Assembly (NCBI RefSeq): GCF_964222135.1
Contig: NZ_CAXQBR010000002.1
Span: 1 to 62,029, forward strand
Reading direction: 5' to 3'
DNA length: 62,029 nucleotides
Source: Euzebya sp.
GTDB lineage: Bacteria; Actinomycetota; Nitriliruptoria; Euzebyales; Euzebyaceae
Shown: positions 1 to 16,700 of the stretch, one piece after another
Layout of the letters: every line of letters starts with the position of its first letter
How positions within the stretch are numbered: the first letter of the stretch is position 1
Notes under the pieces: model-generated
Seen by the model: only the letters and a program-made list of their open reading frames with translations
The model's database searches: none
What the model was told of the DNA's origin: nothing
Translations under genes and position numbers: made by a program

Positions 1-1291
1 CCCCCACCCGGAGCTCGTTTCCCCACGCGGCGCCCATCGCGTTGTTGAGGGCTGCGACTTGTTCCTCACCGGAGAGGTCTCCCCAGTCCTCGGCGTGTTC
101 GGGGAACAGCCGTAGCTGTGTGCCCTCGGTGAGGACCGCGGCGTGGCGACGCTCCAGCGCCGCGTGGATCGCCGCCGTGCTGCTGGACGCCAGCCGCTGC
201 ATCAGGAGGACGAGGAACCCGACAGCGGGCCGGTTCTGGGCCAGCGCCTGCTTGTAGCCGTGGCGGACGTACTCGGTGACCGCGTCGTAGAGCTGCTGCT
301 CGATGTGCCGTTCGCCGTAGGGGATGCTCCGCAACGTCGTAGTACGGGGCAGGAACAGCGGGTTGCCGTCTTGGTCGGTGGTGCGGCGCTTGTCAGCACG
401 AACGACCAGCGGGCCGACCGTGTCACGGGTTGCCTCGAGCCCGTGGATGAAGCGGTCGTCGAGCAGCCCGAGCAGGCGGGCGAAGGCGTCGGACTTGCCT
501 GGGTGGGGGGTGGCCGACAGCAGCAGCACGTTCGGGGCGCACTCGGCAAGTCTTCGGGCCAACTGGTGACGGGCGACACTCGGGTCGCTGCCGGCGACGT
601 GGTGAGCCTCGTCGATGATGACGAGATCCCAGCCGGCGTCCACCAACGCGTCGACCCGGAGGCGGTTGTGCTCTTCGACCCGCTGGGGTGACCACCCTGC
701 ACGTGCCGTCAGCGGCTTGACCGCGTCCAGCGAGCAGATCACCTGGTCGAAGGTGGACCACGGATCGATCCCGGCGTCGAACGGCACGCCGCCGGGCCCC
801 ACGCGCACGAACTCCTCGTCGAAGTGGTCGGCCATCTCAGCCGCCCACTGCAGCTGCACGCCCTTGGGCGCGATGACGAGAGTGCGGCGGACCCGTCCAC
901 GGGCCTTCAACTCGGCGTGGATCAGTCCAGCCTCGATGGTCTTACCGAGACCCACCTCGTCGGCGAGCAACAGCCGAACCGGGTTGCGGGCGAGTCCCCG
1001 CTCGAGCGCGACGAGCTGGTGCGGGAGGGGGGCCAGGCGCGTGCCGTGCACGCCTGCTGACCCTGGTGGATCGAGTTGTTGGATGGCACGGCAGGCAGCT
1101 GCTCGCCACGCGACCTCTGCCGGCGCCCACGGTCGCGAGGTCAACGTCGCTAGCTCAGCCGTGGGACAGCGATGGACGGCCGCGCGGCTGGGGATGACGA
1201 TCTGAGCCGTCTCAACCCGGTCTATCGAGGTCGTCCCCAGGACGCGCACGACCTCGTGGCCGGTCGGCCACCACATCCACTCGGTCACCAT
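1..1291 (-). CDS. brxHII: SNF2-family helicase, BrxHII-like, 3' end cut by window edge
   Basis: An open frame runs off the left edge; 430 residues from the N-terminus are present. Superfamily 2 helicase motifs are clear: motif I (DEVGLGKT, residues about 111-118), motif II DEAH (about 227-230) and motif III SATPH (about 259-263), followed by the start of the region between the two helicase lobes. The second lobe lies outside the window. The ATG shares one base with the TGA of the methyltransferase gene (TGATG), so the two are probably translationally coupled. In BREX type 3 a SNF2-like helicase, BrxHII, follows the PglXI methyltransferase, which fits here. The SNF2 assignment is firm from motifs; the BREX role is inferred from gene order. 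A DISARM DrmD-like helicase is the main alternative, but no other DISARM gene is visible. Confidence 0.88.
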   Translation of the reverse strand, partial: MVTEWMWWPTGHEVVRVLGTTSIDRVETAQIVIPSRAAVHRCPTAELATLTSRPWAPAEVAWRAAACRAIQQLDPPGSAGVHGTRLAPLPHQLVALERGLARNPVRLLLADEVGLGKTIEAGLIHAELKARGRVRRTLVIAPKGVQLQWAAEMADHFDEEFVRVGPGGVPFDAGIDPWSTFDQVICSLDAVKPLTARAGWSPQRVEEHNRLRVDALVDAGWDLVIIDEAHHVAGSDPSVARHQLARRLAECAPNVLLLSATPHPGKSDAFARLLGLLDDRFIHGLEATRDTVGPLVVRADKRRTTDQDGNPLFLPRTTTLRSIPYGERHIEQQLYDAVTEYVRHGYKQALAQNRPAVGFLVLLMQRLASSSTAAIHAALERRHAAVLTEGTQLRLFPEHAEDWGDLSGEEQVAALNNAMGAAWGNELRVG

Positions 1292-3906
1292 CAGCGGACG
1301 AGCATGTCCGCGTTGTCGACGTAGTAGCGGAGCGTCGGCTCGTCGACCAGTGCATCGGCCGGCAGGCGGCGACCGACGGCGACGATCAGGTCGTAGTCCT
1401 GGCGATCCCACGCGTCGTCGAAGCCGGCCTTCACCGCTTCTGAGCGGAACGTCGCGATCCTGCCGGTGCCGGCGGTCAGCGTCTCGAACTCCCGCAGAAG
1501 CGCGCGGGTGCGGAGCTTCTCGAGGTCGGCGGCCTTCTTAGGATCGGGGACGTACCAGCGGCCATCGTCGTCTTGGATGAAGTTCTCAGCCAGCAGCTCC
1601 CGCAGCTCTGGAAGCTGTTCCCAGTCCGCCAGACTGTTGCCGAGCTCTCGGAGGAAGGCGGGTTGGATGTCGCTGTAGGCGAGCGGGCGACTGCGTGCCT
1701 TGAGGTGTTGCCTCAGCCATTGGACCGCGGATGATTCGTCGGTGATGAAGAGGGTGTCGGCGAGCAGCTCCTTGAACGTCAAGCGGTGACGTTCGTAGGT
1801 CTCGACCTGTGTGTCGAGGAAGTACATGCCGTCGCGCACGGGGAACCGCTGGTCGAGACCCTCGTAGAACTCCGTGGTGGTCAACGGGACCGGGATCTTG
1901 CGGCTGACGTGGTAGGCGATCATGCGGTCGTACAGCCGATCGGCCATTCGCTCGCGGATCGGCACGGCTTCACCGCGCCGACCCTCGACGACCTGCACCT
2001 TGCCGAGATGCTCCGTGATGAACGCCCAGGCCGTCTGCGGGTCCCCGTCACCGATGGCGGCGATGTCCGGCGAGGGGACGGTGGGCTTGTAGCAGGAGAT
2101 GACCAGGTCCTTCTTGGCCGCGGAGTCGGCAGTGACCTGTCGGTAGGACAGCTGCTCCTTGTCGAGGATGCGGGTGTCGGCGACCAGGAAGCCCGCGTGC
2201 TCGAGCGCCCGTTGGACGGTGAGCCACACGTCGTTGCTGTGGTTCGAGAACTCCACGGTCATCCACCGGCCGGGCTTGAGGACCCGGTAGAACTCCGCGA
2301 AGCAACGGGCCATGACCCGGCCGTACTCGCCGAGGCTACGGGGCACCGTCTTGCTCTGGTTCTCGATGGCCTCGTCGTCAGCTGACGTGTACACGCCATG
2401 CCATGCTTCGATGAGGTAGGCGAGGTCGGCGTAGTAGATGTTGGCGCCGAACGGCGGGTCGACGAACACGTAGTCGATCGAGTCATCCGGCAGGTCGATC
2501 GAGGTCGACGAGCCGGTGGAGATCATCACCTGGTCGAGCTTCGCCGGGGTCTGCTGCCAGGTCTTCACCAGCGTCTGCCGCTTCCCCCTCGCCGGTTGGC
2601 TGCCCTCCAGGTTGTAGCGAACCGAGCACTCAGAGTGGAGGGAGGGCACGTAGTACACCCCCGTCTGTTGGCGATTCACTTGTGAGTGGTCGGTCGGCTT
2701 GTAGCGGTTCTGCCAGGAAAGCCCCCACAGCGCCTGTTCGATCCAGAACTTCAGCGCGAACCTGGTTAGCGGTTCTGATTCGGCATTAGCTTCCGTCCAG
2801 AGCCAGGCGAGACTGTGGAGTGCGCGGTCTCCCCAGAGGTGGTGGACGCGGGTGAACCCCTTCTTGTCCATCGGGGCTCGCTCGTGGGTCATGTGCATGA
2901 ACGGGAACTCGTGGTCGGGGACCGGACCGGCGAGCGGCGTGGTGGCGATGCGGTCCAGGACAGCGAGGTCGGCCTCGTCAGGCGCCTTGTCGTACCGGGC
3001 GCCGCCATATCGGTAGTGGATGCGGACGGGGCGCATCTCGATTCGAGAGGTGGTGTCGCCGACCGGGGTACGGACGGTGGTCAACCGTCGTTCGAGCCGC
3101 TTCTTGTCCTGCTCGGCGCCACAGGTGGGGCAGGGGAACGGCTCCTCGACGCGTCCGGTGCTCGCGTTGTACGCGACGTCGTAGAAGACAACTGGAGACG
3201 CGCACTGGTTGCAGGAGAAGACCTCCGACCAGACCGTGTACTCGATCTTGGCGGGGCTGCCGTTGCTGTGCGTCGTCTCGTACATCCAGCCGAGCTCGGT
3301 GTCGAAGCGCTTCAGCAGCGCCGCCGAGGCGATGTCGAAGGCGGCAGCGTCGATCGGCAAGTTCAGGCCCGCGGCGATGATCGATGCGGACGGGCCCAGG
3401 TCTGTCAGCACCGCCCGGCGATACCCCCACGACACCGGCCCGAGCTCGCCCTCGATCGTCTCCTTGGTCTTGGCGTCCGGCGCCCCGCATGCCTGGGCGG
3501 CGAGGCCCGTGGCGCCGGTACCGGCGAACCCGTCCAGGACCACGTCCCCGGGACGGGTGTAGTGCAGCAGGAAGCGCATGATCGCGGGGTGCGGCACCTT
3601 GGTCGGGTAGCTGTGCGCCTTGTAGAAGAAGTTGCCCTTGCCGACCGAGACGTCGGTGGCGAACGGACCTGGGTCGGGGCGCTCGTCGTCGGTGGTACGG
3701 ACCCGTTCGAGCCACTCGGCCATGAACGGGTTGGGGCAGGTCGCGTGGTACGGCGGCAAGCTCGCGTCGACGATCGCGTCATCGTCGCCGACGGGGAACC
3801 CCTCCGTAGTGCGGACGTGGTCCAGTTCCTTGCGAAGCCCGTCACGTGCGGTGGCGATGTCCCAGTCGCCGGTCGATCCGGCGGTTGGGAAGAGCGGGTC
3901 GGTCAT
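1291..3906 (-). CDS. pglXI: Adenine-specific DNA methyltransferase with Zn-ribbon, PglXI-like
   Basis: 871 residues. The AdoMet-binding motif I is DGFAGTG (125-131) and the catalytic motif IV is DPPF (483-486), giving a beta-type order for an N6-adenine methylase. Between them lies a Cys4 zinc ribbon (CNQC at 232-235, CPTC at 259-262), typical of the COG1743 methylases found in BREX type 3. The C-terminal 250 residues show no motif I recognise. The ATG lies inside the stop codon of the upstream ATPase gene (ATGA), and the downstream helicase start overlaps this gene's TGA. In BREX the methylase marks host DNA at non-palindromic sites and is also needed for phage restriction. Enzyme class is firm; the BREX assignment rests on order and neighbours. 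Confidence 0.9.
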   Translation of the reverse strand: MTDPLFPTAGSTGDWDIATARDGLRKELDHVRTTEGFPVGDDDAIVDASLPPYHATCPNPFMAEWLERVRTTDDERPDPGPFATDVSVGKGNFFYKAHSYPTKVPHPAIMRFLLHYTRPGDVVLDGFAGTGATGLAAQACGAPDAKTKETIEGELGPVSWGYRRAVLTDLGPSASIIAAGLNLPIDAAAFDIASAALLKRFDTELGWMYETTHSNGSPAKIEYTVWSEVFSCNQCASPVVFYDVAYNASTGRVEEPFPCPTCGAEQDKKRLERRLTTVRTPVGDTTSRIEMRPVRIHYRYGGARYDKAPDEADLAVLDRIATTPLAGPVPDHEFPFMHMTHERAPMDKKGFTRVHHLWGDRALHSLAWLWTEANAESEPLTRFALKFWIEQALWGLSWQNRYKPTDHSQVNRQQTGVYYVPSLHSECSVRYNLEGSQPARGKRQTLVKTWQQTPAKLDQVMISTGSSTSIDLPDDSIDYVFVDPPFGANIYYADLAYLIEAWHGVYTSADDEAIENQSKTVPRSLGEYGRVMARCFAEFYRVLKPGRWMTVEFSNHSNDVWLTVQRALEHAGFLVADTRILDKEQLSYRQVTADSAAKKDLVISCYKPTVPSPDIAAIGDGDPQTAWAFITEHLGKVQVVEGRRGEAVPIRERMADRLYDRMIAYHVSRKIPVPLTTTEFYEGLDQRFPVRDGMYFLDTQVETYERHRLTFKELLADTLFITDESSAVQWLRQHLKARSRPLAYSDIQPAFLRELGNSLADWEQLPELRELLAENFIQDDDGRWYVPDPKKAADLEKLRTRALLREFETLTAGTGRIATFRSEAVKAGFDDAWDRQDYDLIVAVGRRLPADALVDEPTLRYYVDNADMLVR

Positions 3907-6900
3907 GCGTCGGTCTCCGGTGCGAGGACGATGCGGGTGCGGTCGGGGGTGTGGCCGTCGAGCAGGGTCTCGAGGAGCCCGTCGAGGCGTGCCCGTAGTT
4001 CCTCTGGTGCGGCCGGGGAACTGCCGGGGAACAAAGCGGCGCTCAGGTCGGCGGTGCTGACGGTGCGGATCTCGAAGCGCTTGAACACGAGGTCGACGGC
4101 CTTGACGAACTCGACGGTGACCGGGTCGGGCAACGTGCCGGTGTCGCGGAAGTGCTCGACCGCGTCCCTGACGCCGGCGTCGAGCAGGCCGATCTGTTCC
4201 TGCAGGTCGGGCTCGGCGAGGTTCTCGGCCAGCGTGGCGGTCCATCCCTCGTACAGCTCCAGGACTCGGGTTTCAAGCTGCTCGAGCCTGGCGTCGGCGG
4301 ACGTTCCCTCGAGCGTGCCGGGTTGGCGACCTTGGTGGATCACCGACGTCGTCAGCGCAGAGGCGTCGAGGCTCATGATCGTCGGGATGTCGGCGAGCTC
4401 CTGCTTCAAGGTCGTGAACACGCCACCGGGCAGCATCTTGATGGTGGCCAGTCGTTCGACGACGATCCATTCGGGACTGGTCCGCAACTGCTCCTTGCGC
4501 TTGTCTCCAGCGGCGTCCAGGTAGTTGTGCGTGTAGGCGGCTGCAGCAGCCTTTGCGAAGTCTTGGCGGAGCTCGTCGGCTCGGGACGTGAGCGTGCTGA
4601 CGGCGGCAGGGTCGATGGGAGTCGACTGCAACGTCGCGAGCATGTCCTCGCGAAGCGCCTTGGCGTCGTCGGACAGGCTGTGGTGCTCGCCGAAGGCGCT
4701 GACCGCCTCGCGCAGGTAGCTGGCCACACCGGCGAGCTTGGTCGCGGACTTGCGGAGGAGATCGAGGTAGGCGATCTCGTCCTTACCGGCCGTAGCAGCC
4801 TCGATCTGCGCAGGGGGCAGGTTCAGCTTGTTCAGCTTGCCTATGGAGTTGCGCGGCACGATGTCCTCGACGAACGCCTTGAGTCCGCGGATGCGGTGCC
4901 GGCGTTCCTCTCGGAGGTCGACGAGCTGGTCGCCCCAGAACTCGATGCCGTCGGCCACGACGTCTTCGAACTCGCTGATCCTGGATTGCAGCTCGACGGC
5001 ACGGGTACCGAAGGTGGTGACGAGGTCGGTGGTGGCCCCTGTGGCGGGCACAGCACCGGGCGCAACGTCCAGAAGCGTCGCTGCAGCCTTGAGCGCGTCC
5101 GTGGGGGTGGCTGCTGGTGGTGCGATGTGGGAGAAGGCGACCAGTTCGTCCTGCGGCTTCTTCGCCAGCTCTCCTAGGGACAGGGCGTCGATGGTCTGCC
5201 CGGGGTAGGCCAGCTCCGCGTGGCCGAGGTGAACCAGTGCGGCGGCGACGACGACGAGCCACTCGGGCTCGAGGTGCCATGGGGACCAGCTCCACAGCCC
5301 AGGGTCGCGCTGGGTGAGCAGGTCGGTGCGGTTGAGCACCTTGGGGGCCGCATCGTCGAGGAACTTCAGCAGTGCCGCAGCGTATGTGCCGTCGGCGTTG
5401 ATGGTTCCGGTGTGGTCCAAGAGCCCCAGCGCCGAAAGGACCGCACGGCTCGTGCTGGTCGACTTGGCCGGGGTGGCCAGCTGGTTCAGCCCGGCTCGTG
5501 CGGCCTCCATCACGTTGCCCGGTGTCACCTCGACGGTGAACGTGGGGTAGCCGGGGTAGCGCTGCCGGAAGTGGTCGGTCAGGATGTGCGACCAGACAGC
5601 CCGCAGCTGCTCGCGGATCGAGGTAGCCGGTTCGGGGACCTCGTGCAGCCACTCCGCGAGGGTGCGGGTCTCGCCCTTGTAGGTCAGGGTGACGGCATCG
5701 CGCATGTTGGTGCGCAGCCATGTGACGAGTTCCTGCCGGGCAGCCTGCGCCTTCGCGTCGTAGATGGGCCGCCGCTCCCCGGTCGACTCCTTCGCCAGAG
5801 CCAGCGCACCGGCGTACCGCTTCAGGACGGAGCGGAAGGTGTCGTCAGGTGCCGCGAGTCGCTGGAGCACCTCGTCGGACTGCTCCTCGTCGAAGAACTT
5901 GGGGGGGTCGTAGGGCTGGATGAAGAAGAGGTAGAAGTCGCGTGGGGGCTTCGCGGTCGAGCGCTGGTTGGGTGCACCCATGAACAGGTAGCCGCGGCGT
6001 TCGCTCTTCTTCTCAGGCCACGACAGGTCGTACTCCCACGTCTTGTAGGCGCCCTTGTAGGGGTCGTCTCGAACCCCGAGCGTCTCCTCCATCGCGACGT
6101 AGTAGGCCTCGTCCAGCCGGTTGTCATCTAGGGACTCGGCGCGTTGCGCGATCAGCTGGTCGTAGTCGACGTCCTTGTCGAGGTCGAGGTAGTACTGGCC
6201 GTTGTCCTGGTTCTTGCTGATGTACTCGCCGGACACCGCGACGAGCGTCTTCTGCAGGATGGACTCGAGCGTGATGCGGAGGAACGACGCGTCCTTCTTC
6301 GGCAATCCGGGCGGGAGGGGTAGGACCTGGTCGCGCAGCTCCTCGATCGTCATCCCGATCTTGCTGCGTGTGTCCTCAGTGGTCATCCGGTGGACTGCCA
6401 AGGCGTCGAGCAGGCGGGTCGCTGTCGGGATGAACTCCTTCTCGGGCAACGCGGACTGCACCTTGGTGCGGACGTCCTCGCTCTTGTCGAGCACCTCGGC
6501 CACCTCGGGCACCATCCGCGCTCCTGGGTCGTCGTCCATGCGCTGGCGGTAGCTGTCCAGGCATACGAGGCCGGGCTGGTCGTCCGGCACCTGCTGGTCG
6601 GCCAGCCGTAGGATCTCGTCCTGGATGGTGCGGAGGATCTCTCGCTTCTCGACCAAGCGGAGCTGCTCGAACGTGCCGAGGTAGGATGGGTGGACGGGGA
6701 ACAGATCGACGAAGTCCTCTAGGCGCTCGGCCATCCCGTCGTACAACGGCGTGAACGTGGTGAGGTGGTCGCGGATGCGGTCGCGTTGCGTCGGCGACTT
6801 GGGCAGGAGGCGGTGCTTGACGACGAACGACACGTCCTCCTTGCTGATCCGCAGCTGCTCGAACCGGGCCTTGACCCGTTGCACCGCGCTGGCGGCGCCC

Positions 6901-7586
6901 TGGAAGCGTGGGTTGTCGAACAGCGATTCCTGCAGGCCGATGAGGGTACGGAACCGCGAGTTCTTGGAGGACTCCCCGACCTCTCGGAGGAAGGCAAGGT
7001 CCTGGAACAGCTCGGCGTCCTTGCGGCCGCGCAGGTAGTCGAGCAGCTCGTCCAGCGCGAACAGCAGACCCTTGTCAGGGTAGACGGCCTCGAAGGCGGC
7101 CATCATCTCGACCAGGTGATCCTTGGTACCGCTGACCTGGTCGAAAGGCGGGAACTGGTAGTCCACACCCATCGCGGCGAGGCCTTTGGTGAGCTCTTGG
7201 CAGACGATGTCGCGCAGCGACATGCCTGAGGCCCCGATGTCGAAGCGGATGACCTGGAAGGTTCCACGCAGGGGCTCCAGCGCCGTGCGGACGGTCTCTT
7301 TGGTCACAACGTCGAGTAGGTCCGGGAACTCCGCGATGCCCGCGATGACCGCCATGAGGTGGGTCTTGCCGGTCCCGTAGGTGCCGACGATGAAGAGGCC
7401 GCGGTTGTCGCTGGGTTGGTCGAACCGCAGGTGGGGGAGGACCAGCGTGGTCAGTTGATCGGCCATGCGGTCGGAGATGACGTAGGTCTCGACGTCACGG
7501 CGAGCCTTGTCCTCGCTGGCGGAGTCGCGGACCTGCTTCACCTGCTCGAGCGGGGGCGGGATGTCGATGACGTCGCGGTATTTCAT
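3903..7586 (-). CDS. brxC: BrxC/PglY-like P-loop ATPase (DUF6079-type)
   Basis: 1227 residues. An N-terminal AAA-type ATPase core has Walker A GTYGTGKT (68-75) and a Walker B-like LLFALDE (174-180). The opening section, with its ETYVISDRMADQL and FIVGTYGTGKTHL stretches, is what I associate with the BrxC/PglY group (I believe Pfam DUF6079). The rest is long, alpha-helical and lacks other recognisable motifs. ATG is chosen because the N-terminal family signature begins there and the upstream gene stops one base before it. BrxC is the large ATPase common to BREX systems and is thought to act with the methylase and PglZ. The family call is from memory of sequence pattern, not a search. Confidence 0.85.
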   Translation of the reverse strand: MKYRDVIDIPPPLEQVKQVRDSASEDKARRDVETYVISDRMADQLTTLVLPHLRFDQPSDNRGLFIVGTYGTGKTHLMAVIAGIAEFPDLLDVVTKETVRTALEPLRGTFQVIRFDIGASGMSLRDIVCQELTKGLAAMGVDYQFPPFDQVSGTKDHLVEMMAAFEAVYPDKGLLFALDELLDYLRGRKDAELFQDLAFLREVGESSKNSRFRTLIGLQESLFDNPRFQGAASAVQRVKARFEQLRISKEDVSFVVKHRLLPKSPTQRDRIRDHLTTFTPLYDGMAERLEDFVDLFPVHPSYLGTFEQLRLVEKREILRTIQDEILRLADQQVPDDQPGLVCLDSYRQRMDDDPGARMVPEVAEVLDKSEDVRTKVQSALPEKEFIPTATRLLDALAVHRMTTEDTRSKIGMTIEELRDQVLPLPPGLPKKDASFLRITLESILQKTLVAVSGEYISKNQDNGQYYLDLDKDVDYDQLIAQRAESLDDNRLDEAYYVAMEETLGVRDDPYKGAYKTWEYDLSWPEKKSERRGYLFMGAPNQRSTAKPPRDFYLFFIQPYDPPKFFDEEQSDEVLQRLAAPDDTFRSVLKRYAGALALAKESTGERRPIYDAKAQAARQELVTWLRTNMRDAVTLTYKGETRTLAEWLHEVPEPATSIREQLRAVWSHILTDHFRQRYPGYPTFTVEVTPGNVMEAARAGLNQLATPAKSTSTSRAVLSALGLLDHTGTINADGTYAAALLKFLDDAAPKVLNRTDLLTQRDPGLWSWSPWHLEPEWLVVVAAALVHLGHAELAYPGQTIDALSLGELAKKPQDELVAFSHIAPPAATPTDALKAAATLLDVAPGAVPATGATTDLVTTFGTRAVELQSRISEFEDVVADGIEFWGDQLVDLREERRHRIRGLKAFVEDIVPRNSIGKLNKLNLPPAQIEAATAGKDEIAYLDLLRKSATKLAGVASYLREAVSAFGEHHSLSDDAKALREDMLATLQSTPIDPAAVSTLTSRADELRQDFAKAAAAAYTHNYLDAAGDKRKEQLRTSPEWIVVERLATIKMLPGGVFTTLKQELADIPTIMSLDASALTTSVIHQGRQPGTLEGTSADARLEQLETRVLELYEGWTATLAENLAEPDLQEQIGLLDAGVRDAVEHFRDTGTLPDPVTVEFVKAVDLVFKRFEIRTVSTADLSAALFPGSSPAAPEELRARLDGLLETLLDGHTPDRTRIVLAPETDA

Positions 7587-7587
7587 G

Positions 7588-8049
7588 TCAGGCGATCTCC
7601 ATGCGGTACGGAACTTCGTCGGGGAACGTGGTGGCGCGTGGATGGAGGATGACAAATCCTGTCGCTGGCGCATCGACGTAGTCGGCACGCCCTGCTGCGC
7701 TGTAGGTCAAGCGGTTGGCACGGACCGTGCCGGGCCATGCCGCGACCAACGGCGCGCGCCGGGAATGCTGCTTCAATAGCGCCGGAACATCGGTGGCCAG
7801 CATGGGGTGGAAGAGCACGTCGAAGTCGGTGAGGACCGTCGGCTCGTTGATGGCTCGCACGTGTTCGAGGACGTCGTGCGGTTCGTGCGCGACCTGGGCC
7901 ACGAACTGGCCGATGGAGGTCAGGGTGACCGAGTGTTCCAGGGCGTCCAGCAAGACGGGGGTCGCCGGGTCGTGCTGAGGGAAGACCGCGGGACGTCCCC
8001 GTTCGACGTGGACCCGCAGCGGTTCCAGCACGGTGGTCCATCGCGTCAT
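7588..8049 (-). CDS. brxF: BrxF-like small protein lacking a P-loop
   Basis: 153 residues. It sits directly before the BrxC-like gene, where BREX type 3 has brxF, and has the usual BrxF length. The central and C-terminal parts carry a pattern that I associate with BrxF: a hydrophobic strand with an acidic residue (FDVLFHP), then LVAAWPG, then LTYSAAGRADY. The N-terminal half, where BrxF proteins normally have GxxGxGKT, shows no Walker A here. The ATG overlaps the TGA of the upstream gene, and the stop lies one base before the next ATG, so it is embedded in the operon. Either this is a BrxF lineage that no longer binds nucleotide, or it is an unrelated protein in the same slot. Confidence 0.6.
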   Translation of the reverse strand: MTRWTTVLEPLRVHVERGRPAVFPQHDPATPVLLDALEHSVTLTSIGQFVAQVAHEPHDVLEHVRAINEPTVLTDFDVLFHPMLATDVPALLKQHSRRAPLVAAWPGTVRANRLTYSAAGRADYVDAPATGFVILHPRATTFPDEVPYRMEIA

Positions 8050-9431
8050 GCGTGGGGGCCGATGCTCGTGATCGTCCACGTCCGCGTGTCGTCGTCGACG
8101 TCCCAGTAGATGCGCAGGCACTGATCGGGACTAGTGGCCTCGTCGACCTTGAGGTGTGGGGACGGCTGGGCCCCGTAGCCGAACCCTCGGCGGGCGAAGA
8201 AGTCCGCGGGTGGCTCGCCGAGGTGGTCGTGGTGCACCAGCGCGCCAGCCTCCATCACCGCCTGCGTAGCGCGGAGTAGCTCACCGGGCTTCTTGTAGCT
8301 GGCGAAGCCGCGGGCAGACATGATCGCACCGTCGGTCAGCTCGACCTTGCCGGCGTACCACGTCGTCTCGGCCAGCTCCTCGATGCGGTCGACCGCGTCC
8401 GCGACCGTTGCTGGCTCGGCCGCGTCGACTGGACCGACAGGCCGGCCCCGGTGCTTCACCGCCTTGAACTGCTCCTCCAACGCCTCCGCTTTGGCTCTGG
8501 TGCGTGACAGATCGGTTTCAAGGTCGACCGCTCGTTGACGTTCGTCCCGCAGGTGGGCTGTGAGGTCCTCGTTGTCTGCCTCGTAGAGCTGGAGAAGCTC
8601 TCGGAGGTCGTTGACGTCGGAGCCTTCAATTGCCGCACGTGCGGCGACGCGTCGATCCTCGCGGAGCTGTGCGCGGGCAGGGTGTTCGGTGACGGCGGCA
8701 GCGGCCAGGGTGCCCATCCACGAGCGGAGCTGGCCGACGGTTCGGTCGCTGATGCGGTCCGGGAAGGTCAGGCGGTGCCGGTACGGGTCGTCGTCGGGGG
8801 TGAAGCTGGGGAAGTACACCCGCAGCGCTCCGTCGTAGACCGAGAGCTGCGCACCAACGACGTCCGTAAGCGTCCACGAGCTCTGCGGTGTCGACATGAC
8901 GCGCACGTGGGCCATGCCCGCCAGCTGTCTGGACAGTTCCACCGGATCGAGCAGCAGGTCGCTGCCTCGGGACGTCCGGCTGACCACGATGACGGGCAGC
9001 CGACGGCTGTCGCTCTGCATCAGCGTCACCAGGTCCCCGACCTGTGACGGGCCCACCTCGGGGACGGGGTCGGCGTGGCACTCGTGCTCACCGTCGTAGA
9101 CGTCCAGCTCTCGGAGCAGCGTCCGGACGAGTGCGGGTGACTTGAACTCGTACTCCAGCGGCGCGATCGAGCCTGTGGCGGCAGCGCGGATACCGATCCG
9201 GATCGTGACGTGTGCCCGCTCGTCGGGCGCCCCGTGGAGGATCTCGGTCCGCCACTGGACACCGTTGAGGGTCTGCTCCAGGCGGCAGACGCGACTGCCA
9301 TCGGATGCATCGTCGATATGGATGAGCGCGCTGCCATCGCGGTGCTTGTCCATCCACTCATCAATGAAGGGCCGTGCTCGATGATTGGTCGATTCGCGGG
9401 CGTAGAGCGCGGCCGCGTAGAGCTCACGCAA
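8046..9431 (-). CDS. Unrecognised 461-residue BREX-associated protein with central coiled coil
   Basis: I do not recognise a named family. Four parts can be seen: a mixed alpha/beta N-terminal domain (about 1-125); a second domain (about 130-245) containing LPVIVVSRTS and, later, LAGMAHVRV and LRVYFPSF; a charged coiled coil (about 265-345); and a C-terminal alpha/beta domain (about 350-461) ending in RIYWDVDDD. The two globular patterns recur, as I remember it, in uncharacterised actinobacterial defence-island proteins. A TTG start is preferred because GGAGGAG lies seven bases upstream; longer in-frame starts exist but overlap the RecD fragment. Its stop overlaps the ATG of the BrxF-like gene, so it is probably co-translated with the BREX genes and may be an accessory subunit or regulator. 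Confidence 0.7.
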   Translation of the reverse strand: MRELYAAALYARESTNHRARPFIDEWMDKHRDGSALIHIDDASDGSRVCRLEQTLNGVQWRTEILHGAPDERAHVTIRIGIRAAATGSIAPLEYEFKSPALVRTLLRELDVYDGEHECHADPVPEVGPSQVGDLVTLMQSDSRRLPVIVVSRTSRGSDLLLDPVELSRQLAGMAHVRVMSTPQSSWTLTDVVGAQLSVYDGALRVYFPSFTPDDDPYRHRLTFPDRISDRTVGQLRSWMGTLAAAAVTEHPARAQLREDRRVAARAAIEGSDVNDLRELLQLYEADNEDLTAHLRDERQRAVDLETDLSRTRAKAEALEEQFKAVKHRGRPVGPVDAAEPATVADAVDRIEELAETTWYAGKVELTDGAIMSARGFASYKKPGELLRATQAVMEAGALVHHDHLGEPPADFFARRGFGYGAQPSPHLKVDEATSPDQCLRIYWDVDDDTRTWTITSIGPHA

Positions 9432-9927
9432 GGGTGCCTCCTCCGTCTTCCTGTTGACGGCCCCAGCAGCCTGGCTGAAGGGCAGACGTTCGTTCGATTC
9501 GCCGCTGCACCGTGGGTGAGAGCTGATCTGAGCTAATGACCGTGACGCGTCGGCTTGACCGAGTGATGGCGGTGTACAACAGCTGTCGGGTGGTGCGGCG
9601 GCCATCGGGTGGCAGGGCGATGACCACGTCGTCGAACTGGGAGCCGTGGCTCTGGTAGATCGTCATGGCGTGGACGGTTTGGAGGCCGTGGAGGCGGCGA
9701 GGGTCGAGCGGCTGAAGGCCGGTCGAGGTGTCGAATGCGATGCGCAGGCGACTGCCGTCGCGGATGACGATGCCGAGGTCGCCGTTGAAGATGCCGAGGC
9801 GGTAGTCGTTGGTCGTCGCGCGGACCGGGCGACCGGGATAGGACTCCGGGCCCCAGGCGGGGATGCCCCGCGCGTCCACGAGCGCGTCCGCGCGTGGCGC
9901 TCGGTGGACGATCAAAGCCTCTGCCAT
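9424..9927 (-). pseudogene. recD: RecD-like helicase, C-terminal fragment only
   Basis: About 167 residues match only the end of RecD/UvrD-like superfamily 1 helicases: YPGRPVRATTNDYRLGIFNG (about 29-48), the VHAMTIYQSHGSQFDDV motif V region, and the closing LLYTAITRSSRRVTVI. The Walker A and central motifs, some 400 or more residues, are missing, and I see no trace of them upstream. It therefore cannot be a working helicase. Its stop overlaps the start of the 461-residue gene by eight bases, and its tail encodes that gene's ribosome binding site, so it is transcribed ahead of the BREX operon. It may be a recD relic at the boundary of the island, or a retained accessory domain. The start is uncertain. 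Confidence 0.7.
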
Positions 9928-10340
9928 GTCTGTTCTGGCCCCCTCGGCGCGACAGTGTTGCACACCTACCGAGGCGGACGGTGTTGCATCGGCGTCGGCG
10001 GATGAACCACTCGCAGTGCAGCACGGAAGGACAGACGGGACGAAGTGGGACGATCCCGCGCCTTAAGAGCTCTTGCCGCGCCCCCCGGCGTTGTCGGGCG
10101 CCCACGTGTCGCAGTCGGAGTCCGAACACTTCGGCGGGCTTCGCGGTGCTCAACGGCCCGGCGCCACAACGAACGGGCTGGTGGCAGACGGTTTCTGCTG
10201 AGGTCTGGGCGGGTGCGGGACGTAGGCCTACTGGCTCCTGAACGCGGTTGCCACCCTCAGCTCAACGCCGGTGGCAACAACGAGGGCGAGGGTTCTTGGC
10301 TACGATAAGTGCCGAGCGGAGGACCATCGGGAGGTCATTG
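9928..10340. other. Divergent intergenic region without a supported gene
   Basis: No reading frame here resembles a protein, and no RNA gene was recognised. It separates the minus-strand BREX operon from the plus-strand DUF3825 gene, so promoters for both should lie here. The missing upstream part of recD is not detectable. It contains one clear inverted repeat, listed separately, and TACGAT at 10301-10306 as a possible -10 element for the DUF3825 gene. Confidence 0.6.
10247..10278. promoter_or_regulatory. Inverted repeat, possible operator
   Basis: Perfect 9-bp arms (GTTGCCACC and GGTGGCAAC) are separated by 14 bases and end 62 bases before the DUF3825 start. The right arm lies just upstream of the position expected for the -35 of the TACGAT -10 candidate. 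There is no T-run, so an operator or mRNA hairpin is more likely than a terminator. Confidence 0.4.
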
Positions 10341-11159
10341 ATGAGTGCCGAACCAAAGGCTGAGGACTTGCTGCGCCCTTTCGAGGGTTACCGGCCAGGT
10401 GCCGTGCAAGGCCTGAAGCAGTTCTCATTTGTCCCGGACGAAGTGCGAGACAGGCTTGCCTCTCTCGCCTTGGATGAAGACTGGGGCGAGAACAACTTCG
10501 TTCTAGTGAAGTATCTCGCCGTTCAGGTGCCACTATCTCTTCAACAGGGCCGGTACACCTGGTTTAACAACCAACTCACCTTGACTGCGGGTACGCTGCA
10601 AACAAGGTACGGCACCCCGTTATACATCATCTTCGAACGGAACGAACGACCGGATGCCGCCCCGTGGTTCATGCGTATTGCGACTGATCGTCCGATGGCG
10701 GATGAATTGCCTCAGCCGGCCAACCTTCCCGATTGGCCTGATATTGCACTGAACTCTGAGATTGTCATCGCACACGAGCACATTCTTGATGATAACAAAT
10801 CCCGAGTTGCATTCCTAGAACACACACCCCCCGTTGCGCAAATGTGCGCGGTCGCAGGAGCTATTCAATGGTCGATTCATCGCAGGCTATACATACCGCA
10901 ACTCTACTGGGGAACGACGAGTTACTTCGTGCCGGTCTACCTCACGAGCCGGGAGGACATCACAGCGGCACCTGACCTCGTGGCCCCTGTGCAGGTCCAG
11001 CCTGGCTATCTCGTTGCCCGCACGCTGCTGGAGCCTTACATGAGCTACGCCAGAGCCCGGGTAGTCGCCCCCCGTGCGGATCAACTGCCCACCTGGCTCG
11101 TCAGCGCCTGGCGAGACCACAGCCAACACGTGTCGGAAGAAGAGGACGAGCTAGCTTGA
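10341..11159 (+). CDS. DUF3825 domain protein
   Basis: 272 residues. The segment from LASLALDEDWGENNFVLVKY to about residue 160 fits DUF3825: a helical start, the YLAVQVPLSLQQGR stretch, a thymidine-synthetase-like acceptor region, and IIFERNERP followed by the paired FMRIATDRP. DUF3825 is found near RNA- and DNA-processing enzymes in predicted defence or RNA-repair settings; its biochemical role is unknown to me. The ATG is supported by GGGAGG ten bases upstream. The coding sequence is visibly richer in A and T than both neighbours (for example around 10500-10640 and 10740-10920), which points to separate and recent acquisition. It is divergent from the BREX operon. Confidence 0.72.
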   Translation: MSAEPKAEDLLRPFEGYRPGAVQGLKQFSFVPDEVRDRLASLALDEDWGENNFVLVKYLAVQVPLSLQQGRYTWFNNQLTLTAGTLQTRYGTPLYIIFERNERPDAAPWFMRIATDRPMADELPQPANLPDWPDIALNSEIVIAHEHILDDNKSRVAFLEHTPPVAQMCAVAGAIQWSIHRRLYIPQLYWGTTSYFVPVYLTSREDITAAPDLVAPVQVQPGYLVARTLLEPYMSYARARVVAPRADQLPTWLVSAWRDHSQHVSEEEDELA

Positions 11160-11361
11160 CGCAAGTGCAGGGATTCGGTGCGCCCGGGGTTCGAGTAGTA
11201 GCGACTCGTGGCCGGGCCGCCGTGGATCGTCCGCGGGAGGACAGCTACGGAGTGTCCGCCTGAGGCCTTTGGATAGGCGTCTCGACCCCACTCACAGGCG
11301 CTGTCACCCACTTCCGTTGGACTCCGTCTGTGGACTGGCGAGGCACCGAGGAACAGGCGCC

Positions 11362-12159
11362 TCAGGGCTGGATCATCTGCGTCACCCACCGCTGGATGAA
11401 GGGGGGCATGCCAGAGGCGTCGAGCGCCGTCAGCAGTCGCGCCCAGCTCACGCCGGTCAGTGCGGGGTGCGGAGCCGTGCCCGTCCGCGACAGCAGTCCG
11501 TACGTCGTCCGCCGTTCGAGCAACCGGTCGAACATGTGACGTTGCACATCGAGTTGCGACACACGATCGAGTCCGCGCTCATCGAAGATCGACTTCTCTG
11601 CCGCAGTGGTCGGGTAGCTGCTGATGCCGGACTCGAGCTTCGCCTCGACGCACAGCGCGCGGTTGCGGCCGTAGAGGACGACGAGATCCGGCTTGATGTT
11701 GAACGACCACTTGAAGCGGCAGGCGTCCAAGAGCTCGCTGTTCGACAGGGGTTCGCCCGTATCCAGGCGCAGCGTCTCGTGGAGCTGCGTCACTCCCCAG
11801 CGCTGCGGAGACTGGATGTGGTCCGAGGAGATGGGTCCCGCGACGCCGAACCGCCTGTTGAACGTGCGCGGATCGCAGGTCTCGAGCTCGGCCGCGTCGT
11901 CGGGCTGGACTGCGGCGAGGATGATCCGCCGGCGGGTCTCGAGCTCCGGGTGCTGATGCCAGAGATCACGCAGGTAGGCGAACTCGACGAACACCTCCGT
12001 GTCCACGTCGTCGAACGTGAGCCCCCCGGTGCCGAACAGGTCCCCGAACTCCGCCAGGTTGTCGCGGTGGAACAGCAACGCGTAGAGGGTCGCGACCGCG
12101 TTCCGCTCTTCGCGGTTGAAGGCGGAGTACGGCGTGTCTGGAGTCGGGATGGCGGGCAC
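11362..12159 (-). CDS. PD-(D/E)XK nuclease-like protein
   Basis: 265 residues. The only clear motif is NIKPDLVVLYGRNRALCVEA followed by KLESG at about 155-180: an Asp in PD, a spacing of about 14, then E-A-K. This is the core of the PD-(D/E)XK nuclease fold. Helical segments lie on both sides, and I see no helicase or DNA-binding domain. GTG start, with AGGAGAGGAA about seven bases upstream. It stands alone in orientation with the DUF6308 gene upstream, in the middle of a run of defence-type genes, so DNA or RNA cleavage against foreign nucleic acid is plausible. The substrate is unknown. Confidence 0.65.
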   Translation of the reverse strand: MPAIPTPDTPYSAFNREERNAVATLYALLFHRDNLAEFGDLFGTGGLTFDDVDTEVFVEFAYLRDLWHQHPELETRRRIILAAVQPDDAAELETCDPRTFNRRFGVAGPISSDHIQSPQRWGVTQLHETLRLDTGEPLSNSELLDACRFKWSFNIKPDLVVLYGRNRALCVEAKLESGISSYPTTAAEKSIFDERGLDRVSQLDVQRHMFDRLLERRTTYGLLSRTGTAPHPALTGVSWARLLTALDASGMPPFIQRWVTQMIQP

Positions 12160-13875: not shown

Positions 13876-16305
13876 ATGGAACCGCAACTCGCTGCCGCCG
13901 TCCGGCAGCGGCTGGCCGACGCGGGGCTCGACGAGGCGACCGTGCAGCTGGTCACCGCGGCATGCACCGGCACGCCGTTGGATCGCTCAGCCGACGCGAC
14001 GTGGCCGGATGATTCGGAACCCGACCAGCGTGACGATGGCGACGTGGCCGGGGTGTTCCTCGCGGGCATCGCCGTCGAGGGCTTCCGCGGGATCGGGCCG
14101 CGACGTGAACTGCCGCTGACGCCTGGTCCGGGTCTCACGCTCGTGGTGGGGCGCAACGGGTCGGGCAAGTCGAGCTTCGCCGAGGCACTTGAGATGTGCC
14201 TGACCGGCACGTCGTCGCGATGGGCCGGGCGACCGAAGGCATGGCAGGAGACCTGGCGCAACCTCCACCACGACGGCGACGCGGCGATCACCACCCGACT
14301 TGTGGGGGTGGGCGACGCCCCCTGCGACCTCATCCATCGGTGGCCGGACGGGGAGAACGATGTCACCGCCGGCCACAGCGAGCTGGACGACGGTCGGCGC
14401 CTGAGGGACCTCGGCTGGGCCGCTGCGCTCAACCAGTTCCGGCCCCTCCTATCGTTCAACGAGCTCGGCGGCATGTTCGACGGCCGGCCCGCGGACCTCT
14501 ATGACGCCATCGCGGCCATCCTCGGCGTCGATCCGCTGCGGGGCGCCGTCGAGGTGCTGCGCCAGTCTCGACTCGCGGACTCGAAGCCGATCAAGGCCGT
14601 CACCGACGCGCGGAAGGAGTTGATCTCCCAGCTCCGAGCGAGCCACGACGACCGAGCCGACGACGTGCTCACGGCCATAGACGGCAAGGACTGGGATCTG
14701 CCTGCTGCGCTTGCCGCAGTGCAAGAGGACACGACCGCACCGACCTCGGACCTCTCACGCCTCCGCGCGCTCATCGGCATCGACGCTCCCCACCCCTCGG
14801 ACGCCGCGCAGGTCGCCGAGCAGCTGCGGGACGCCGCAGCCGCGCACGCCGCGGCGGCGGCCACCGACGCCGGCCGTGCCGACCGCATCGCGCAGCTGCT
14901 CCGCCAGGCCATCGCCTGCGTCGATCACGACGGTCCCACGCCATGCCCCCTCTGTGGTTCCGGCACCGTGCTCGATGACGACTGGCGTTCCACCGCCGAG
15001 GCCGAAGCCGAGCGGTTGGCGGACCAGGCGCGGGTGGTCCGCGATGCCGAGGCCGCGATGTCGGTGGCCCGTCAGCAGGCACGCCGTCTGATGCCATCCC
15101 TGCCGGCGACGTTGGAGGACGCGAGCCTGGTCGGTGTCAACGCCGTCGAGGCGCTCGCCGCGTGGCAGCGGCTGCTCGACGCGCCCGAGGATCCGGGGGC
15201 GCTGGCAAGGCACCTCGTGGACGCCGTCGATGCGCTCGACGAGCAGCTCCGTGAGCTGCGCGCTGCAGCATCGCGTGAGCTCGACCGCCGGCAGGACGAC
15301 TGGCGTCCGCTGGCCGTCGCCGTGACCCGGTGGGTCGAGGACGCGCGCGAAGCACGCCTCGCCGAGGCACGAGCCATCCAGGCGCAGACGGCGGAGAAGT
15401 GGCTGGCCGCCTGCGCGACGGAGATCGAGGCGGAGCGGTTCGCCCCCATCCGCGAGGCCGTGCGGTCCTACTGGGAGCGGCTGCGGCTCGAGTCGAACGT
15501 CAGCCTCGAGGACGTGTCGCTGTACCGGGCGGGTCAGCGGCGCAGCCTCGAGCTGGACGTCACCGTCGACGAGACCGGCGCCAACGCACTCGGCGTCATG
15601 AGCCAGGGAGAGCTGCACTCCCTCGCCCTCGCCGTCTTCCTCCCACGCGCCACGTTGGACGAGAGCCCGTTCCGCTTCGTCGTGCTCGACGATCCGGTGC
15701 AGGCGATGGATCCCGCGCGGGTCGAGGGGTTGGCCACCGTCCTGGCAGAGGTCGCCAAGACCCGTCAGGTCGTCGTCATGACGCACGACACACGCCTGCC
15801 GGATGCGGTCCGGCAGCTGCAGATCCCTGCCACCGTCTGGGAGGTGCATCGTCGGCCACGGTCCGAGATCGACCTCCGCACGGTCGATGATCCCGTCGAC
15901 CGGTACCTGGACGACGCTCGTGCGGTGGCACGGACCGAGGAACTGCCGGCTCCCGTTCGCGCGAAGCTCGTGGCGCAGATGGGACGGGGGGCGCTCGAGG
16001 CGCTCACTGTCGACCGCATCCGCCGGCGGTGGCTCGGTCGGGGCATCCCACACAGTGAGGTCGAGCGCCGCCTGGACGGCAAGCGCGTCCACGACCTGAT
16101 CGCCCTGGCGCTGTTCGACTCCGACGACCGCGACGCGACGACGAAGGTCACCCCGACCCTCGCGGGCTGGTTCGACGGCTACGCCGACGTGCTGAAGGAC
16201 TGCAAGCGCGGCACGCACGTCGGGGAGCGGGTCATCGAGGACGCCGTCTTCGTGCGCCACCTGGACGGTCTCGTGAAGAAGCTTCGGCAGGAAGCACCAG
16301 CATGA
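13876..16305 (+). CDS. SMC/RecF-like AAA ATPase with CxxC zinc-hook motif
   Basis: 809 residues. A helical N-terminus (1-60) precedes an ABC-type split ATPase: Walker A GRNGSGKS (92-99), a CPLC motif near 356 at the apex of the helical arms, the signature SQGELHSLALAVF near 576, Walker B FRFVVLDDP near 600 and an H-loop MTHD near 634. A further 160 residues of charged helices close the protein. This layout fits RecF/RecN/Rad50-like ATPases used in several defence systems, such as Lamassu or overcoming-lysogenization-type nucleases, but no nuclease domain is seen here. Its stop overlaps the next ATG (ATGA), so effector activity may reside in the partner. GGAGGGGAA upstream supports the start. 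Confidence 0.85.
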   Translation: MEPQLAAAVRQRLADAGLDEATVQLVTAACTGTPLDRSADATWPDDSEPDQRDDGDVAGVFLAGIAVEGFRGIGPRRELPLTPGPGLTLVVGRNGSGKSSFAEALEMCLTGTSSRWAGRPKAWQETWRNLHHDGDAAITTRLVGVGDAPCDLIHRWPDGENDVTAGHSELDDGRRLRDLGWAAALNQFRPLLSFNELGGMFDGRPADLYDAIAAILGVDPLRGAVEVLRQSRLADSKPIKAVTDARKELISQLRASHDDRADDVLTAIDGKDWDLPAALAAVQEDTTAPTSDLSRLRALIGIDAPHPSDAAQVAEQLRDAAAAHAAAAATDAGRADRIAQLLRQAIACVDHDGPTPCPLCGSGTVLDDDWRSTAEAEAERLADQARVVRDAEAAMSVARQQARRLMPSLPATLEDASLVGVNAVEALAAWQRLLDAPEDPGALARHLVDAVDALDEQLRELRAAASRELDRRQDDWRPLAVAVTRWVEDAREARLAEARAIQAQTAEKWLAACATEIEAERFAPIREAVRSYWERLRLESNVSLEDVSLYRAGQRRSLELDVTVDETGANALGVMSQGELHSLALAVFLPRATLDESPFRFVVLDDPVQAMDPARVEGLATVLAEVAKTRQVVVMTHDTRLPDAVRQLQIPATVWEVHRRPRSEIDLRTVDDPVDRYLDDARAVARTEELPAPVRAKLVAQMGRGALEALTVDRIRRRWLGRGIPHSEVERRLDGKRVHDLIALALFDSDDRDATTKVTPTLAGWFDGYADVLKDCKRGTHVGERVIEDAVFVRHLDGLVKKLRQEAPA

Positions 16306-16700
16306 CGCCGGAGGAGGTGCTGGCGGAGGCGCGGACGCTCGCCAGTCGAGGCGTCGGCGAACTGGGTGGGACGGCGAGCAGGGCGGCCGCCCTGTTGGGT
16401 CGGAGTGCGCTGGAAGACGCGATCTGGGACCTGTTCCCCCAGCTGAAGGAGGTCAGTGGACGGGCGATGCACCTGACCCTCCCGTTCGTCTTCGATCGGC
16501 AGGTCGCGCGTCAGGCTGCCCTGGTGTGGGGGCGGCTGTCCGCCGCCAGCCACCACCACATCTACGAGATGCCGCCGACCGCGGTCGAGCTGGAACGGAT
16601 GCTCGACACCGTCCACGACGTCATCGACGCGGTCCGTGACCGGCAGGAGCGCAGGCGTGAGAAGCGTTCGGCTGGTGTGACGAGGGCCAGCGGACGATGA
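16302..16700 (+). CDS. Small helical partner of the SMC-like ATPase, possibly HEPN-like
   Basis: 132 residues, mostly alpha-helical. A conserved-looking opening (RAAALLGRSALEDAIWDLF, about 25-45) and LSAASHHHIYEMPPTAVEL (about 85-105) match a family I recall next to actinobacterial AAA ATPases. The segment RLSAASH contains an Arg followed six positions later by His, which fits the R-x4-6-H motif of HEPN ribonucleases; this is suggestive only. The gene starts inside the stop codon of the ATPase gene, so a tight two-component system is likely. The last 20 residues are basic and poorly ordered. Confidence 0.65.
   Translation: MTPEEVLAEARTLASRGVGELGGTASRAAALLGRSALEDAIWDLFPQLKEVSGRAMHLTLPFVFDRQVARQAALVWGRLSAASHHHIYEMPPTAVELERMLDTVHDVIDAVRDRQERRREKRSAGVTRASGR

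Follow-up and report, generated by a model that had tools for sequence, protein, structure and literature searches.

A divergent member of the candidate defence family HEC-07 heading a type 3 BREX operon in Euzebya sp., with a C-terminal fold likely, from models of relatives, to resemble RelE-superfamily toxins

Gene organization of the locus

The window (the whole stretch analysed, 62,029 nucleotides of contig NZ_CAXQBR010000002.1 of Euzebya sp.) was found to contain, on the minus strand, a gene of 461 codons running from a TTG start (9431-9429) to a TGA stop (8048-8046), followed by the genes of a type 3 BREX operon (Table 1). Support for the TTG start comes from the closest intact relatives, which share this starting point: the N-terminus is MRELYAAAL in the window protein and MRTVYAAAL in that of Variovorax. 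A sequence-only reading had proposed this gene without giving its strand, and the gene was found to be real; the PADLOC HEC-07 models and the tblastn relatives described below indicate that it is more than a chance open reading frame. Both overlaps proposed for it were also found, the stop codon sharing a four-base ATGA with the start of the brxF-like gene (ATG 8049-8047) and the recD-like fragment, which ends in a TGA (9426-9424), reaching seven bases into the HEC-07 frame. At the gene itself, searches found no promoter, terminator or Rfam element.

Table 1. Coordinates of the HEC-07 gene, its parts and the neighbouring genes in the window
Feature	Coordinates	Strand	Basis or remark
HEC-07 family gene, 461 aa	8046..9431	-	translation; PADLOC E=1.2e-46
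Shine-Dalgarno GGAGGAGG, 5 nt before TTG	9437..9444	-	sequence
N-terminal region, residues 1-115	9087..9431	-	relative's model: helix and four-stranded antiparallel sheet, pLDDT ~45-68
Alpha/beta-looking region, residues 121-225	8757..9071	-	RRLPVIVVS ... DPVELSRQLAGMAHV ... GALRVYFP; pLDDT ~30
Coiled-coil linker, residues 250-318	8478..8684	-	long helix in relative's model
C-terminal module, residues 342-461	8049..8408	-	RelE-superfamily-like fold predicted in relatives
His426, first conserved His of the C-terminal module	8154..8156	-	alignment
His460, second conserved His of the C-terminal module	8052..8054	-	alignment
brxF-like gene, ATGA overlap with HEC-07	7588..8049	-	NF033453 51.8 bits, cut-off 50
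brxC (DUF6079 ATPase)	3903..7586	-	PF19557 1116 bits
pglXI / brxXI methyltransferase	1291..3906	-	PDLC02541 E=1.1e-274
brxH SNF2 helicase, 5′ part, cut by contig end	1..1288	-	continues on contig C93
recD-like gene fragment, C-terminal end only	9424..9927	-	overlaps HEC-07 start

All six core genes listed for type 3 BREX in a 2026 survey (PMC12839542), namely brxF, brxC, pglXI, brxH, pglZ and brxA, were found across the window contig (C2) and contig C93, the latter located through a PglZ search of the same genome. Contig C93 (L111, 4776-10134) was found to contain the second half of brxH, pglZ, brxA, darT and darG in one direction, together with an opposed ZacC-like helicase gene. The two contigs almost certainly adjoin because the helicase halves fit one model at successive positions (89-429 and 451-635), the junction being placed by brxH alone. 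Spread over two contigs, the type 3 BREX operon is complete and reads HEC-07, brxF, brxC, pglXI, brxH, pglZ, brxA, darT and darG; the coupling to a BREX operon that had been proposed was confirmed, as translational coupling through the ATGA shared with brxF. Within the operon BREX-3 is flanked by HEC-07 at one end and by DarTG at the other. The brxH helicase obtained a higher score from the PADLOC model labelled BrxHI than from the BrxHII model. The brxF homologue was found to have no Walker A P-loop and to be matched by BrxF models in its C-terminal part only; other actinobacterial BrxF proteins contain a Walker A motif (for example GPSGSGKTSAL in L068:9612-10088).

Over its first ~13 kb the window showed a G+C content of 63-69%, whereas 70-77% was found from 14 kb on, as is expected of an acquired island. 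The recD-like fragment, ~50% identical to a longer recD-like frame in the same genome (contig C99), is for that reason probably foreign, left over at the edge of the island. Beyond the BREX island a plus-strand gene for an SbcC/ABC-type ATPase of 809 aa was found (13876-16305), possibly another defence gene, with a partner gene of 132 aa (16302-16700) whose start overlaps it.

Assignment to the HEC-07 family

Four PADLOC HEC-07 models (PDLC04158-04161) matched the window protein, with E-values of 1.2e-46 (157.8 bits), 2.5e-21, 1.6e-14 and 2.4e-14. The match runs along most of the protein, covering positions 102-442 of the 553 in the profile, and the order of parts is the same in the window protein and the family. 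Differences were found in the shorter front end (the profile match begins at 102), in the identity of about 20-28% to any relative, and in the type 3 BREX operon context, unseen in the other members examined here; homologues lie close to Hma, DISARM and other defence genes. Searches of Pfam and NCBIfam with the window protein gave nothing above the cut-offs, so the sequence-only reading, which saw no recognised family, stands for these two collections and falls for PADLOC. No match to a characterised family was obtained, HEC-07 being a candidate family for which no functional study was found; the literature search on HEC-07 and NsnC returned no relevant paper. HEC stands for "Hma-embedded candidate". 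That group name is used in PMC12988326, where several HECs are described as having antiviral activity and HEC-06 is named. By its profile matches the window gene is a real, divergent member of this already listed candidate family, and its operon setting is new.

Nearest BLAST relatives of the window protein were proteobacterial and not actinobacterial, with tblastn relatives on plasmids of Bradyrhizobium (4e-25) and Variovorax (7e-21). The family tree agrees only weakly with the proteobacterial relatives being the nearest, the window protein forming its longest branch (1.74). Intact relatives could be aligned over 500+ aa. HEC-07 relatives were obtained by searching genomes with the PADLOC models; scans of genome contigs with back-translated patterns, too strict for such a divergent family, gave no relatives. 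Among viral contigs most protein scans gave one contig only, and a C-terminal DNA pattern added two more (L063 and L064). An alignment of 13 relatives proved too diverse to serve as a scan query.

Architecture and the shared C-terminal module

In members of the family a conserved Trp marks the N-terminal region, which is followed by an alpha/beta-looking region with the motifs RxLPVVVVS and GAxRVYxP, a coiled coil and a C-terminal module spanning ~140 residues. The sequence-only reading had described two globular ends with a coiled coil between them, and this is borne out as predicted structure in AlphaFold2 models of relatives. The N-terminal region (residues 1-115) gave no firm fold match; the structure hits to DUF1089 (2h1t, Z 6.0) and TIPRL (Z 5.1) were weak, fell in a part modelled at pLDDT ~45-68 and were not interpreted. 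The second N-terminal region of HEC-07, of the LPVVVVS type, was seen again in three proteins (L036 4800-6599, L037 9366-11300, L051 11923-12993), there combined with a coiled coil and an end that looks different (HFW...VGVHDD); those of L036 and L037 additionally contain S1 RNA-binding domains.

Two histidines of the C-terminal module were invariant in all 16 members aligned. The module was found behind other N-termini as well, namely behind an NDT/DUF4406-like domain, an ATP-cone and a coiled coil (L033 8346-9743, L044 8152-9843, L088 9151-10488) and behind further N-termini (L034, L040, L042). It corresponds to the C-terminal ~130 residues of NsnC, a PADLOC candidate, which are common to relatives of the window protein (L064, E 3.7e-14; L048, 7e-9); these intact relatives matched the NsnC models, and the window protein itself gave no match at E up to 1. 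NsnC homologues keep the first His, the second often being Lys (in two of those examined). NsnC differs from the window protein in its N-terminus, in belonging to a three-gene system with NsnA (DUF262-like) and NsnB (an AAA ATPase), and in having no coiled coil in the sequences examined. One such operon, NsnA-NsnB-NsnC, was found at L086 (6398-9733), its NsnC ending in the RelE-like module common to HEC-07. The C-terminal module is thus common to HEC-07, NsnC and proteins with different N-termini.

Genomic distribution of HEC-07

Of 396 genomes sampled from the phylum, 21 gave a match to the HEC-07 model and 8 to DUF6079. Multi-gene defence systems were found to adjoin at least 6 of the 21 loci, with the window and one module-only locus counted, a lower bound since PADLOC scans of neighbours covered the loci judged by eye to be defence-island-like. 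HEC-07 adjoins the DISARM genes drmA, drmB and drmMI (L031), adjoins a truncated HmaA whose frames overlap (L032), lies one gene away from Wadjet jetABC (L041) and lies between brxL and an HEC-06-like gene with drmD nearby (L046), and a protein that has only the C-terminal module in common with the family adjoins DrmD, DrmMI/type IIG enzyme and DarT genes (L033). As a rough expectation, chance would give well under one of 21 loci, because multi-gene defence systems are a small part of genomes of 2-9 Mb. Other HEC-07 loci lie alone amid housekeeping genes.

Relatives were also found on plasmids of Streptomyces, besides those of Bradyrhizobium and Variovorax, and on three related prophage-like contigs with HEC-07 at one position (L052 10001-11545, L063 8641-10188, L064 317-1864), convergent with a small head-module gene in a cargo position. 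A tyrosine integrase gene was seen close to HEC-07 in L052. This distribution over plasmids, prophages and defence neighbours is that of a mobile defence gene.

State of the copy in the window

The window copy lacks the usual LPNTKT tail and, by an in-frame difference, ~25 residues of the hairpin region immediately ahead of PHLK. It keeps His426, His460 and the strand before them, and its C-terminal motif aligns with the relatives, a domain E-value of 7e-4 being obtained with the family's own profile over residues 424-460 only. The tail may be dispensable because a tail-less relative exists (L030) that retains the rest of the module; the internal loss, unlike the tail, may not be. With ~25 residues of the effector domain missing, the window copy is possibly weakened or inactive.

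These losses raise the alternative of a degenerate passenger: a HEC-07 that is decaying or has lost catalysis, and that either survives only through its position in the operon or now serves as a scaffold, decoy or regulator. The long branch in the family tree would suit such decay, as would the L030 relative (10114-11554) of another genome, which is split into two overlapping frames, lies next to an IS630-type transposase gene and looks broken. Against it, 461 codons have stayed open behind a Shine-Dalgarno sequence and are coupled to brxF through the ATGA, both conserved histidines are retained, and L030 shows the tail lost with the remaining module kept. A passenger is considered unlikely, at perhaps one chance in four.

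Predicted fold of the C-terminal domain

A resemblance to RelE/YafQ was noted from the conservation pattern alone, before any model. Two AlphaFold2 models were then available, in which the modelled chains are intact relatives and the window protein is only an alignment row. The first (L052 as query, the window protein as second row) gave a mean pLDDT of 44, with the C-terminal part mostly at 60-87, and the second (L064 as query with L063, L052 and the window protein) a mean of 53, with the C-terminal part mostly at 70-92. The alignments, of 2 and 4 sequences, share sequences, hence the models are not independent; query and alignment depth differ. The best PDB matches of the C-terminal domain by VIA-align were 4ls4 (Z 6.5), 7v6w (6.5), 5ifg (6.1) and 4fxh (6.1) for the first model and 4ls4 (Z 7.0), 7v5y (6.7), 4fxe (6.4, 82/82 residues) and 5ifg (6.2) for the second, all below the Z of 8 under which, according to the tool, a match may be a common arrangement. 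These are RelE-superfamily toxins, with YoeB in 7v6w and 7v5y, HigB in 5ifg and RelE in 4fxh and 4fxe, and nearly the whole target chains were covered.

The RelE matches come from the VIA-align re-ranking only; plain Foldseek against the PDB gave no E below 0.09 and no RelE among the best 50 matches listed. Membership in YafQ was rejected, as comparison by hhalign with a YafQ toxin alignment found no sequence link (probability 0.14%, 4 columns). Pfam gave no hit in 16 family members, neither Pfam nor NCBIfam nor the PDB yielded a relative by sequence, and sequence searches of the PDB returned coiled-coil noise only. The C-terminal ~140 residues are thus likely to fold like RelE, YoeB and HigB toxins, as judged from the models, the claim being one of fold and not of membership. 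The likeness to these type II toxins lies in the predicted C-terminal fold of the intact relatives and in short His-containing C-terminal strands; the differences are that no sequence relation is detectable, that HEC-07 has no adjacent antitoxin and that its domain follows a coiled coil and a large N-terminal part in one chain.

ParE toxins have a RelE-superfamily fold, and a domain of this fold need be no RNase; it might act as a ParE-like gyrase poison or as a nucleic-acid or protein binding domain. ParE was indeed found among the matches (6x0a for the first model, 8c24 for the second), and the conserved C-terminal residues are not known as the catalytic set of any single RelE subfamily. The RNase-type members RelE, YoeB and HigB outranked ParE, however, and the two His with a nearby Arg/Ser-Ile-His/Tyr strand would look like an RNase-type site, which leaves the non-RNase alternative improbable.

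Relation to BREX

The gene had been put forward as an undescribed BREX subunit, with recurrence upstream of brxF-brxC in other actinobacteria as the check. Such recurrence was not found in the searchable loci: brxC (DUF6079) adjoined none of the 20 other HEC-07 loci, whose flanks were inspected over about 9 kb in both directions, and HEC-07 was present at none of the five other DUF6079 loci (out of seven) with enough flank to judge. HEC-07 occurs largely alone or with unrelated genes, and as an existing candidate family it does not bear out the undescribed subunit; of the proposed subunit, sensor or regulator, a sensor/effector-type architecture stays plausible and the BREX subunit is not supported. 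Among the 66 genomes of the class no other full relative was found, and one genome of the same genus contained the C-terminal module only, in a short frame.

A dedicated subunit or regulator that binds BrxF/BrxC as part of the machine, for example a sensor triggering BREX, would suit the first place in the operon, the ATGA overlap and the small HTH/excisionase-like gene found upstream of brxF in three of the five readable actinobacterial BREX-3 loci and missing here, but with both recurrence counts at zero and a family that occurs alone or with other systems it is considered improbable.

Discussion

The best reading takes HEC-07 as an accessory module heading a type 3 BREX operon, composed of a sensor, a coiled coil and a RelE-fold effector and serving as a backup, a reading to which a probability of roughly 0.5 is given. 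The gene would have been acquired by horizontal movement into the 5′ end of the BREX operon, its place beside brxC being a single instance. Its two N-terminal domains may sense a sign of infection, either the phage or a BREX that has been overcome or inhibited; the term sensor is drawn from the architecture, the N-terminal half being modelled at low confidence. The coiled coil would dimerise and relay the signal, and the RelE-fold end, going by its fold, would cut RNA (mRNA or ribosome-bound) or otherwise block translation or growth, by which growth of the infected cell would be stopped as a backup abortive response behind BREX. An effector function of the RelE-like fold is plausible but unproven, and HEC-07, instead of being a true subunit of BREX, may be a self-shutdown module that plugs into it.

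DarTG is an abortive toxin-antitoxin defence. Auxiliary and suicidal effectors are embedded in many BREX operons (2026 survey, PMC12839542), and the backup-effector view of HEC-07 fits these as well as the DarTG at the other end of the operon. The likeness is that of an extra gene within or at the end of the operon which may abort infection when BREX fails; the difference is that the main text of the survey names HNH, PD-(D/E)XK, OLD/TOPRIM, HEPN, PIN and Schlafen effectors, RelE, HEC and DarT not being found there by text search.

More tentatively, and with the odds somewhat against it, HEC-07, NsnC, the NDT/ATP-cone proteins and the other fusions might form an undescribed class of sensor proteins with one RelE-fold effector, acting as a suicide backup in BREX-3, DISARM, Hma, Wadjet and Nsn. 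The HEC-07 match explains an otherwise unannotated gene of this genome. If the accessory-module reading is true, a RelE-type module would join the known backup effectors of BREX operons, alongside DarTG at the opposite end, and if the module is a RelE-fold effector common to NsnC and the fusions, it would provide a testable mechanism for two candidate families together.
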